Positions 9,813-16,368 of a stretch of DNA of 46,578 nucleotides are shown here, in pieces. Source of the DNA: Bacteroidales bacterium. GTDB taxonomy: Bacteria > Bacteroidota > Bacteroidia > Bacteroidales > UBA12170. A model generated the notes under the pieces. The model searched no databases. It was not told the origin of the DNA and saw only the letters and a list, made by a program, of their open reading frames with translations. The stretch covers positions 1 through 46,578 of the forward strand of contig JAGGWH010000078.1 of the NCBI GenBank assembly GCA_021157585.1, in the 5' to 3' direction. Each line of letters opens with the position of its first letter. The stretch's first letter is position 1. The position numbers were made by a program, and so were the translations under genes.

Positions 9813-10844
9813 TTAATCTTCACGCATTTCGCCTTTTAAATTCTTTTCCATTAGTTTTTTGGCTTCTTCTTTAGAAATATCTAAACCTAATATCATCATC
9901 ATTTTTGTTAGTGCGGCTTCTACCGTTATGTCCTTACCGTTAATTAAGCCCATATCGGCTAAATCGAGACTGGTTTCGTATTTTCCCATTTCTACGGAAC
10001 CGCCTCTGCATTGCGAAACGTTTACAATTAAAATACCTGCATTAAGTGCAGCTCTTAATTCATTTAAAAACCATTCTTCCGTAGGTGCATTTCCTGCTCC
10101 ATAAGTCTCCAAAATAACACCTTTTATTCCATCGATAGAAAGTATTGCTTTAACTGTTTTAGGACAAATACCGGGAAATAATCGCAGCACAACAATATTA
10201 TTATCGAGCTTAGTATTGATTTTTAATCGTTTAAATTTTGGTTTTAAAATATTTTGTTCCCGATATTTAATATAAACGCCAACATCGGCTAATGCCGGAT
10301 AATTTACCGATTTAAAAGCGTCAAAATTCTCCGCATTAAACTTATGCGTGCGGTTTCCTCTAAATAATTGATTCTCAAAGTAAATGCATACTTCGGGAAT
10401 CATTGGAATATCGTCAGACTTAGCTCCGGCAATTTCCAAACTGGTAATAAAATTATCTCGTCCATCAGTTCTAACCATTCCCAAAGGTAATTGCGAGCCG
10501 GTTATAACTACGGGTTTATTTAAATTGTCGAGCATAAAACTTAAAGCCGAAGCAGTATAACTCATAGTGTCTGTTCCATGAAGAATAACAAAACCGTCAT
10601 ATTTTTCGTAGTTCTCCGAAATAACTTCAACTAATTTTATCCAATAATCCGGACTAATATTTGCCGAATCGATAATAGGATCAAAAGAGTAAGAATCTAT
10701 TTTAAAGTCAAATAATTCCAATGATGGCATATAATTATACAGCTCATCAAAATTAAACGGACGTAACGAGCCTGTTTCTATATCTTTAAACATCCCAATA
10801 GTTCCTCCGGTATAAATAACCAATATGGCTGCTTTCATATCCAA
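9813..10844 (-). CDS. ansA: Type I (cytosolic) L-asparaginase
   Basis: Hydrolyses L-asparagine to aspartate and ammonia. The 343-aa protein has no signal peptide, consistent with the cytosolic AnsA class. The first catalytic Thr lies in YTGGTIGM near the N-terminus and the second Thr-Asp pair in HGTDTMSYTASALSF. The C-terminal domain has the GVILETYGAGNAPT motif. It lies 9 bp after tatD on the same strand and so probably shares its transcript. Together with asnA at 15009-16013, the window holds both synthesis and breakdown of asparagine, though in separate transcription units. Confidence 0.95.
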   Translation of the reverse strand: MDMKAAILVIYTGGTIGMFKDIETGSLRPFNFDELYNYMPSLELFDFKIDSYSFDPIIDSANISPDYWIKLVEVISENYEKYDGFVILHGTDTMSYTASALSFMLDNLNKPVVITGSQLPLGMVRTDGRDNFITSLEIAGAKSDDIPMIPEVCIYFENQLFRGNRTHKFNAENFDAFKSVNYPALADVGVYIKYREQNILKPKFKRLKINTKLDNNIVVLRLFPGICPKTVKAILSIDGIKGVILETYGAGNAPTEEWFLNELRAALNAGILIVNVSQCRGGSVEMGKYETSLDLADMGLINGKDITVEAALTKMMMILGLDISKEEAKKLMEKNLKGEMRED

Positions 10845-15008: not shown

Positions 15009-16013
15009 CTACAATAAGTGAACATTAGCTTTTAAAGATTCTTCTCTAATACTATCGGGCCAAAGACTAACTTGTACCTCACCAATGTGTTGTTTTTTCA
15101 ACATAAACATTACAACTCTCGATTGTCCAATACCGCCACCAATACTTTGTGGTAATTGATCGTTTAGTAAGAGAGAATGAAAATACAGGTTTTTTCTATC
15201 CGAGGCTCCTCTTTCTTCTAACTGATTCAATAAAGTAGTTTTATTAACACGAATCCCCATAGACGAAATCTCAAAAGCGGTTTTTAAAACAGGATTCCAA
15301 ACTATAATATCGCCATTTAGACCATAATAACCATCTTCATTTTCCGAACTCCAATCGTCATAATCCGGTGCACGACCATCATGAATTTTCCCATCACTAA
15401 GTTTACCTCCAATACCAATAATAAAAACTGCACCAAAGGCTTTTGCGATTTCCGTTTCCCTTTCTTTAGCACTTAGTTTAGGATATCTCTCTAATAATTC
15501 TTCGGAATGAATGAAAGTGATTTTTGTGGGTAAAACAGCCTGAAGATGAGGATTTACTAAAGCAAGTTGTATTTCGGTAGTTGTAAGAGCCTCGTAAATT
15601 TGTTCTACGTGTTTTTTCAAAACACTTAACGATCTGTCTTTTGCACTTATAGTTTTTTCCCAATCCCATTGGTCTACATAAATTGAGTGTATAGGACTAT
15701 AATCCTCATCCGGACGAAGCGCACGCATATCAGTTAATATTCCTTTTCCCTCTTCTACTTCTAATTCACTAAGACGTATTCTTTTCCATTTTGCCAAAGA
15801 GTTTACAACTACAGCACTTTGTTCTTTCAAAGCTTTAACAGGGAATTTAACGGTTCTTTCGCTACCGTTTAAATCATCATTAATGCCTGTGCCGTCCAAT
15901 ACCGCAATAGGTGATGATATTTTTGTCAGATTTAATTGTTTTGATAATTCTTGTGTAAAAATTTCCTTTACAAGACTGATTGCTTCTTCTGTTTTTAAAA
16001 TGTCGTTTTTCAT
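15009..16013 (-). CDS. asnA: Aspartate-ammonia ligase (asparagine synthetase A)
   Basis: Makes L-asparagine from aspartate, ammonia and ATP; cytosolic, with a class-II aminoacyl-tRNA-synthetase-like fold. From the ATG at 16013 it is 334 aa, close to the 330 of E. coli AsnA. Recognisable blocks include SPIAVLDGTGINDDLNG, VDQWDWEK, DYDDWSSENEDGYYGLNGDI and the C-terminal SIGGGIGQSR. The frame stays open to a GTG at 16091, but those 26 codons run through a terminator hairpin, so I reject the longer form. Upstream lie two Asn-rich leader peptides each followed by a terminator, which argues for attenuation by charged tRNA-Asn. The preceding gene on the strand is the MsbA-like exporter, ending 356 bp away. 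Confidence 0.95.
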   Translation of the reverse strand: MKNDILKTEEAISLVKEIFTQELSKQLNLTKISSPIAVLDGTGINDDLNGSERTVKFPVKALKEQSAVVVNSLAKWKRIRLSELEVEEGKGILTDMRALRPDEDYSPIHSIYVDQWDWEKTISAKDRSLSVLKKHVEQIYEALTTTEIQLALVNPHLQAVLPTKITFIHSEELLERYPKLSAKERETEIAKAFGAVFIIGIGGKLSDGKIHDGRAPDYDDWSSENEDGYYGLNGDIIVWNPVLKTAFEISSMGIRVNKTTLLNQLEERGASDRKNLYFHSLLLNDQLPQSIGGGIGQSRVVMFMLKKQHIGEVQVSLWPDSIREESLKANVHLL

Positions 16014-16038: not shown

Positions 16039-16074
16039 AAAAAAAAAGCCTGACCATCGACTGACGGACAGGCT
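16039..16074 (-). terminator. Second attenuator terminator (T2) of the asnA leader
   Basis: On the minus strand AGCCTG (16074-16069) pairs with CAGGCT (16052-16047), extended past one mismatch by CC/GG, and is followed by nine T. A competing hairpin exists: ATCATCGA (16081-16074) can pair with TCGATGGT (16060-16053), eight pairs with one G-U. It uses overlapping bases, so the two cannot coexist. T2 ends 25 bp before the asnA ATG. Confidence 0.7.
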
Positions 16075-16093
16075 CGATGATGATATAGCACGG

Positions 16094-16132
16094 CTAAGTA
16101 TTATTATTTATATTCAAATTGATTTGTTTCAT
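16094..16132 (-). CDS. Asn-rich leader peptide 2
   Basis: ATG at 16132 opens a 12-codon ORF, M-K-Q-I-N-L-N-I-N-N-N-T, ending in TAG at 16096-16094. Five of the 12 residues are Asn, at codons 5, 7, 9, 10 and 11, all AAT. The stop lies about 20 bases before terminator T2. As with trp, his or leu leaders elsewhere, the peptide is probably only a sensor of charged tRNA. Confidence 0.65.
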   Translation of the reverse strand: MKQINLNINNNT

Positions 16133-16151
16133 AATAGAACTGTTTTAAAAC

Positions 16152-16184
16152 AAAAAAGCCTTCCGAATTTCGGAAGGCTTTTTT
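16152..16184 (-). terminator. First attenuator terminator (T1) of the asnA leader
   Basis: AAAAAAGCCTTCCG and CGGAAGGCTTTTTT form a perfect 14-bp stem with a 5-nt loop, followed on the minus strand by GTTTTAA and preceded by an A run. It is a strong, potentially bidirectional intrinsic terminator placed 18 bp after the leader 1 stop. Its 5' arm (minus-strand 16180-16171) can instead pair with CGGAAGCTT at 16219-16211: nine pairs with one bulged base. Confidence 0.85.
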
Positions 16185-16201
16185 GTTATTTTTTTATATC
16201 G

Positions 16202-16279
16202 TTACACAATAAGCTTCCGTTTTCGCAATGTATTAACATTGGAATTATTATTGGAATTATTATTATGTACACTTGTCAT
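16202..16279 (-). CDS. Asn-rich leader peptide 1
   Basis: ATG at 16279 opens a 25-codon ORF with Asn at codons 6-8, 10-12, 14 and 16 (M-T-S-V-H-NNN-S-NNN-S-N-V-N...), all AAT, then TLRKRKLIV and TAA at 16204-16202. Codons 21-23 (CGG AAG CTT) are complementary to the 5' arm of terminator T1. A ribosome stalled on the Asn run would leave them free, while one at the stop would cover them. The peptide itself has no expected activity. Confidence 0.75.
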   Translation of the reverse strand: MTSVHNNNSNNNSNVNTLRKRKLIV

Positions 16280-16368
16280 TACTCTCTATTTAGACTACGA
16301 ATGTAAACTTATTATTTAATTTTTGAAGAAAAATTAAAAGAAAAAATCTAAAAAGTAAAAAATATTTT

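Follow-up and report, generated by a model that had tools for sequence, protein, structure and literature searches.

The Bacteroid-trp element is a tryptophan attenuator. It appears as entry RF01692 in a table of PMC2864571, and leader-peptide attenuation in the Bacteroidota is already indicated by two further reports: the transcriptome sections of PMC9723704 describe strong clues for it upstream of amino-acid operons of Flavobacterium psychrophilum, and the relevant part of PMC7366714 describes short ORFs in 5' UTRs of Bacteroides thetaiotaomicron that are reminiscent of leader peptides. The logic of the trp/his type, in which the ribosome's position on a codon-run leader ORF decides between an antiterminator and an intrinsic terminator, is set out in section 11 of PMC3641672 and the abstract of PMC1183508. 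Serial arrangements have also been described: the passages of PMC3641672 on the Salmonella mgtCBR leader report units that sense ATP and proline, act additively and are unlike intrinsic terminators, and those of PMC2965389 on the rimP leaders of several Gammaproteobacteria report a second, tandem terminator.

The window (the whole stretch of 46,578 nucleotides that was analysed) carries a gene for aspartate--ammonia ligase (asparagine synthetase A, asnA), whose product matched TIGR00669 at 413.5 bits (cut-off 292.8). The preliminary description had reported two Asn-rich mini-ORFs upstream of asnA, each followed by a T-tailed hairpin, and both pairs were confirmed. Leader ORF 1 encodes MTSVHNNNSNNNSNVNTLRKRKLIV (8 of 25 codons Asn) and leader ORF 2 encodes MKQINLNINNNT (5 of 12), each ending in a stop codon, and the hairpins past them, T1 and T2, both have a U run. 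Coordinates are collected in the table, and ORF1 with T1 and ORF2 with T2 are called units 1 and 2. The predicted fold of the leader region had z = -6.95 against shuffles, with none of 100 shuffles as good. All 13 Asn codons of the two ORFs are AAT; this means little, because AAT already makes up 79% (148/187) of the Asn codons in eight window genes and 13 of 13 has a chance probability of 0.048, and the uniform codon choice was rejected as a signal.

Table. Features of the asnA leader in the window (minus-strand features read from the higher to the lower coordinate)
Feature	Positions	Strand	Basis
asnA	15009..16013	-	TIGR00669 match
Leader ORF 1, 25 codons, 8 Asn	16202..16279	-	ATG start; counterparts in relatives
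Leader ORF 2, 12 codons, 5 Asn	16094..16132	-	ATG start; counterparts in relatives
Intrinsic terminator T1	16153..16183	-	Sequence feature; U-rich tail to about 16147
Intrinsic terminator T2	16046..16075	-	Sequence feature; U run to about 16039
Unit 1 antiterminator strand CGGAAGCUU, within ORF 1	16211..16219	-	Duplex with T1 5' arm; covariation
Candidate segment 1, UUCC	16253..16256	-	Predicted fold
ATCATCGA, earlier-proposed T2 antiterminator strand	16074..16081	-	Pairing possible, without ribosome gating in the model
Likely -7 promoter element TACATTCG	16298..16305	-	Differs from TAnnTTTG at one position; transcription predicted to begin near 16293

Two other genes of the window were noted in passing. 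A type I asparaginase (9813-10844, minus strand; TIGR00519, 317 bits against 260.5) lies about 4 kb from asnA, so that genes for asparagine synthesis and breakdown are near each other. A polysaccharide tyrosine autokinase (TIGR01007; 6632-9112, plus strand) ends in a long Tyr-Gly repeat (AYGYGYG...), as if a phosphorylated tail had been expanded.

A gene-restricted scan covered a sample of 1.0 Mb from the window's genome, the window itself among it. There, 448 genes had 80 nt or more upstream, and six of them were preceded by an ATG ORF and then a terminator. The asnA leader had the strongest codon enrichment of the six (Asn, p = 6e-5 for ORF1 and 3e-4 for ORF2); a Trp, a Met and a Tyr/Phe leader, each upstream of a gene described below, came next, and the last two (L315, Leu; L265, Met) had no evident tie to an amino-acid gene. 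A laxer strand-wide scan of 1.23 Mb, in which genes were ignored, placed ORF1 sixth, returned many matches without a gene link and had as its top-ranked match a sequence inside a coding gene.

The distribution of asnA itself is patchy: the gene was found in 26 of 60 relatives, and searches at wider ranks found it in 23/395 genomes for the class, 158/393 for the order and 22/395 for the phylum. Relatives were represented by the best 80 of 588, and the order-level loci by the best 30 of the 158 genomes with asnA. Altogether 164 asnA loci were collected (L001-L155 and L190-L198; a weak match, L199, lay outside the asnA count), and removal of three with less than 250 nt upstream and of one duplicate left 160 distinct loci, an uneven sample consisting mostly of best matches. 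An automatic rule, which called an ATG ORF with at least four Asn codons including two in succession (NN) and then a terminator, found at least one unit in 33 of the 160 loci and at least two units in 12, as against none in 160 reverse complements and none in 3,200 dinucleotide shuffles (20 rounds). The comparison with relatives that had been proposed as a check of the mini-ORFs and terminators thus came out in their favour.

Classification by hand gave 32 leader-bearing loci from several Bacteroidota families, all with U-tailed hairpins accompanying the leaders, and bore out the reading of two units in series: 16 loci are tandem (L001-L006, L013, L026, L037, L038, L112, L117, L131, L132, L133 and L136) and 16 are single. 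The first six tandem loci are every asnA locus found among 11 genomes of the window's genus. The single unit lies further upstream in seven Hymenobacteraceae-type loci and L014, and adjoins asnA in L007, L083, L118, L134, L137, L139, L142 and L155. Of the 160 distinct loci, this leaves 128 outside the leader-bearing class, ten of them with at least 60% AsnA identity. A tree was built from 71 AsnA proteins, including 39 picked as leaderless and two on long branches; in it, 27 of the 32 leader-bearing rows fell within one supported group of 34, and L013, L014, L026, L117 and L118 fell outside it. No Asn leader with a terminator was found at 30 asnB loci (best matches of 118/119 genomes with a match) or at the asnS gene of the window's own genome. 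At a locus of another class of the phylum (L193), a longer ORF with an Asn-rich end, VNANLNSNLNLNANNNAMTAGG, stands upstream of asnA and is followed by a terminator; it may be a divergent Asn leader beyond the class.

The unit further upstream showed a conserved antiterminator strand. As had been proposed, codons 21-23 of ORF1 (CGGAAGCTT, 16219-16211) are complementary, apart from one bulge, to the 5' arm of T1; the duplex was predicted at -11.2 kcal/mol, and one of 200 shuffles was as good. In the relatives the complementary strand of unit 1 is likewise the end of the leader ORF (for example GGGAAGGCU in L002, in place of the window's own strand), except in L117, where it consists of the bases just past the ORF. 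In L013, CCGGAGG stands opposite CCUCCGG, so that both sides have changed, and the encoded peptide as well. Against shuffled sequences, the leader ends of unit 1 reached p ≤ 0.05 in all but one of 24 units; the exception, L033, had its segment boundary set at a late Asn codon, a boundary error that also affected unit 2 of L026 and is corrected in the comparison of representatives.

The complementarity also covaried. Cognate leader/terminator pairing in unit 1 exceeded permuted pairing in every one of 20,000 permutations, with all 24 units or with 15 representatives, and the cognate partner ranked first in only 7 of the 15 because many terminators share a core. The antiterminator pairs were formed in 90.1% of the alignment cells, a value that none of 500 shuffles reached, and versions slid along the alignment gave 39-69%. 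Four of the eight pairs showed changes on both sides, a pair count reached by 31 of 500 shuffles, and the number of cells changed on both sides was reached by two of 500. The parts of the leader, their conservation and the covarying complementarity are what sequence and comparison demonstrate.

Folding of unit 1 predicted that the ribosome gates this duplex. With the 3' arm of T1 not yet made, the window's free RNA was predicted to fold with -10.6 kcal/mol when the ribosome had stalled at the last Asn codon and with 0.0 kcal/mol when it sat on the stop codon, and a difference of at least 5 kcal/mol was predicted in 23 of the 24 units, with L117 as the exception. In the predicted ribosome-free fold of the window's sequence, the candidate segment UUCC pairs with GGAA at 16218-16215. 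Because finished T1, at about -26 kcal/mol, greatly exceeds the antiterminator, at about -11 kcal/mol, in stability and won in every ribosome position tried, antitermination would have to be kinetic: for unit 1 to work, the antiterminator would need to form first and then hold. In its tested features, both of sequence and of predicted folding, unit 1 looks like a textbook attenuator of the trp/his type.

The leaders also appear to lie on a single transcript. The -7 element consensus TAnnTTTG, placed at -12 to -5 in PMC9723704, was present in the 80 nt before the first leader at 17 of the 32 leader-bearing loci, compared with 200 of 6400 background windows (3.1%), and in its strict form it was absent between the leaders of all 16 tandem loci. 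The window itself has a one-mismatch form only.

The best explanation of these observations is a two-stage, ribosome-mediated transcription attenuator through which the supply of charged tRNA-Asn would control asnA. Transcription would start just upstream of ORF1. When Asn is scarce, the ribosome would stall in the Asn run of ORF1, and the exposed 3' end of the ORF could capture the 5' arm of T1 while T1 is still being made, so that the polymerase reads through; when Asn is ample, a ribosome at the ORF1 stop codon would cover that strand, T1 would form and transcription would end. A polymerase past T1 would then face the second Asn leader and terminator, and because these lie before asnA, expression of asnA would require that both stages be passed. 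From this architecture we infer termination at the two hairpins, translation of the ORFs and a response to Asn, and two stages could give a steeper response or a lower leak. Judged from sequence, we put the probability that asnA is under Asn-responsive attenuation through at least unit 1 at about 0.85.

The role of the unit adjoining asnA is less straightforward in the window. The preliminary description had proposed that ATCATCGA excludes T2 by pairing with TCGATGGT (16060-16053). The pairing is possible, and its partner is the 3' arm of T2, not the 5' arm. The model puts the edge of a ribosome positioned at the ORF2 stop codon at 16084, and the segment, which starts at 16081, lies just past it; neither this ribosome nor one stalled for want of Asn covers the segment. 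Since it pairs with the 3' arm and is free in both states alike, its proposed role as antiterminator of T2 is unsupported. The trp/his-type logic that had been assigned to both units is supported for unit 1, with its complementarity, covariation and predicted gating, and its antiterminator step is unsupported for the window's unit 2, where no gating was predicted.

Gating was predicted in 22 of the 24 units adjoining asnA, and the two failures were the window and its genus mate L002, with differences of -0.1 and 0.0 kcal/mol. In the other 22, the 5' arm of the terminator has a partner strand at, near or before the end of the ORF, frequently CAGG or GGCGG at or soon past the stop codon, opposite GCCUGC or GCCCGCC; among the 24 units compared, the window and L002 lack such an ORF2-proximal strand. 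The leader ends of unit 2 beat shuffles at p ≤ 0.05 in 15 of 24 units, a weaker result than for unit 1. Cognate pairing was matched by none of 20,000 permutations with 24 units and by one of 20,000 with 16 representatives, of which three had the cognate partner in first rank. The window's own cognate duplex ranked 9 of 16 and was no better than shuffles (p = 0.73).

It is therefore a real possibility, if one short of an even chance, that only unit 1 senses Asn here and that ORF2 and T2 are degenerate or form a constitutive partial terminator that lowers basal expression, as the want of predicted gating in the window and L002 would lead one to expect. This possibility is compatible with the best explanation as far as unit 1 is concerned. 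It has to be set against the Asn codons that ORF2 still has (5 of 12, p = 3e-4) and against the retention of both ORF2 and T2 in the two genomes. Unit 2 of the window may have been remodelled, may have degenerated in part or may serve as a second filter that is always on, and, going by the sequence, we lean towards some Asn response of unit 2 in the window's genome.

Four relatives depart from the simple model, which does not explain them: the ORF2 frame runs through T2 in L005, L006 and L013 and ends inside T2 in L026, and for these four the ORF2 end in the gating model was set nine codons past the last Asn instead of at the stop codon. Their ORF2 carries PPP, PPG or PPPP past the Asn run, and these Pro runs could do the work of a stop codon by slowing the ribosome. 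The Pro-Pro end of many second leaders was considered as a ribosome-holding motif and set aside, since L038 has the complementarity (CUACC/GGUAG, by eye) without Pro.

The same four relatives are what would be expected if the leader ORFs acted on asnA translation, or via Rho, instead of on intrinsic termination. We regard such a mode of action as improbable, because U-tailed hairpins accompany the leaders at all 32 leader-bearing loci and a complementary strand lies at or near the leader end in most of them.

It is more improbable still that T1 is the plain terminator of the upstream ABC-transporter gene and that the Asn-rich ORFs arose by chance in AT-rich DNA. The ABC-transporter gene does lie on the same strand, its end 186 nt before T1, and in a simple scan T1 came out as a terminator on the opposite strand. 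However, a homologue of this gene was found, within the available flanks, at only 1 of the 32 leader-bearing loci, so that the leader and terminator go with asnA while the upstream gene differs, and T1 as the terminator of the ABC-transporter gene is disfavoured. A chance origin of the ORFs was rejected on the empty shuffle and reverse-complement controls, and the covariation between leader and terminator argues against both parts of this explanation. Least probable of all is a T-box or another direct RNA sensor of tRNA-Asn or asparagine: Asn genes are T-box-controlled in the Firmicutes, but neither the T-box, nor Bacteroid-trp (RF01692), nor any other Rfam family matched the window at the gathering score, and conservation falls on codons that share a frame with a start and a stop.

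A covariance model built from unit 1, R1, was used to search the window's own genome and 395 genomes of the class. In the own genome it scored 109 bits at asnA, a training member, and 42.8 bits at the next place. No new asnA leader was found over the 395 genomes, and the five best matches (109, 106, 105, 99 and 63 bits) fit by construction because all are training loci. Weaker matches, 36 loci in all (L201-L207 from the own genome and L208-L236 from the class, the latter including training loci), were scanned for Asn-rich ORFs. Five of the weaker loci were viewed closely: they comprised a tandem Met leader, a tandem Phe/Tyr leader, a Met/Cys ORF and two places with nothing clear. The Met/Cys-rich ORF, MNNKAKNILNTINNTMMCCMMCI, lies in another genome (L228, minus strand, 1476) and is followed by a terminator at a contig end; it is probably a Met/Cys leader of a gene past that end.

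The 42.8-bit place (G000:C170:9193-9507; L201, L307) holds tandem Met leaders upstream of a gene for O-acetylhomoserine sulfhydrylase (TIGR01326, 625 bits against 495). The first ORF, MKKQNTIMRSMMMCEEILAKSPLV, ends in a stop codon and is followed by a terminator, and the second, MTTKYSVSNTESMRMMMQTMHWYCLD, also with a stop codon, is followed by a U-tailed hairpin recognized by eye, outside the rule. Among 21 sulfhydrylase loci (the best 21 of 30), a Met/Cys leader with a terminator was found by rule at four, the own locus included. Two Met/Cys units each were present at L368 and L382, from two other genomes, and L377 had one unit and a second Met/Cys ORF.

Two Tyr/Phe-rich ORFs precede an aminotransferase gene of the own genome (L298, upstream of 12873 in G000:C161), for which no curated cut-off was reached among the families listed. 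The first, MKIYAYRYFFYWFIRP with a stop codon, has a terminator by rule; the other ends in FYYFWNYYYLFY and a stop codon and has, by eye, a weak U-tailed hairpin only. A leader was found by rule at 5 of 20 aminotransferase loci (the best 20 of 30), the own one included, and among these 20 a second aromatic leader was seen in the own genome only. In a genome of the class, a tandem Phe/Tyr leader (L213, 1500-1757; R1, 55 bits), with its second leader and hairpin recognized by eye, precedes a gene that we take from its appearance to be pheA-like, and then an aminotransferase gene. The Trp leader of the own genome, MNLNNWWWRNIDSEMEK with its terminator (L314, minus strand, upstream of 12601 in G000:C177), looks single, a later ORF there having one Trp and no terminator found after it; the gene downstream is presumably trpB.

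On balance we consider it somewhat more probable than not, from these sequences, that serial ribosome-mediated attenuators sensing one amino acid twice are a general design of the Bacteroidota, the putative cases being Asn at asnA, Met (with Cys) at O-acetylhomoserine sulfhydrylase and Tyr/Phe at an aminotransferase or a pheA-like gene. If so, the design would provide a multiplicative, low-leak gate from leader ORFs and terminators alone. The Met and Tyr/Phe cases in the own genome suggest that amino-acid control in the phylum may often be built in this way, from leaders that plain annotation misses. For asparagine, a correct reading would add this amino acid to those under leader-peptide attenuation and would supply a natural example of one sensor repeated in series. 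The race model in the abstract of PMC1183508 ties the sensitivity of attenuation to leader design, and because of this link the single-unit and tandem-unit asnA leaders of related bacteria would amount to a natural experiment on the effect of the second stage.

Among the literature matches listed, with subscription papers and supplements out of scope, neither an Asn leader-peptide attenuator nor a tandem for the same amino acid was found. A comparative attenuation study by Lopatovskaya and colleagues (2010), cited in PMC4833913, may list some of these leaders. The reports on Bacteroidota leader peptides concern the same phylum, and their relevant parts (PMC9723704, PMC7366714 and PMC2864571) name no Asn element and no tandem; asparagine, asnA and asnB are absent from the main text of PMC9723704, supplements being outside the comparison. 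The predicted leaders of Actinobacteria (PMC1262725) and the hisS leaders of Firmicutes (PMC2965389) resemble the present case, in the portions that describe them, as comparative predictions of leader peptides outside the Proteobacteria, and the main texts of both papers contain no mention of asparagine or Bacteroidetes. The rimP leaders with their second tandem terminator, as far as that paper's account of them goes, are a different system from the asnA leaders.

The mgtCBR leader, in the passages cited above, is alike in that two leader ORFs lie in one leader and one of them senses a charged tRNA. In the asnA leader, in contrast, both ORFs are Asn-rich and a U-tailed hairpin lies past each, and the features of an mgtCBR-type leader were not found. 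In comparison with the trp/his attenuators of the Proteobacteria, the asnA leaders share the codon-run leader ORF, the competition between antiterminator and intrinsic terminator and, as predicted for unit 1, the decision by ribosome position; they differ in the amino acid (Asn), the gene (asnA), the phylum (Bacteroidota) and the presence of two serial units in 16 of the 32 leader-bearing loci.
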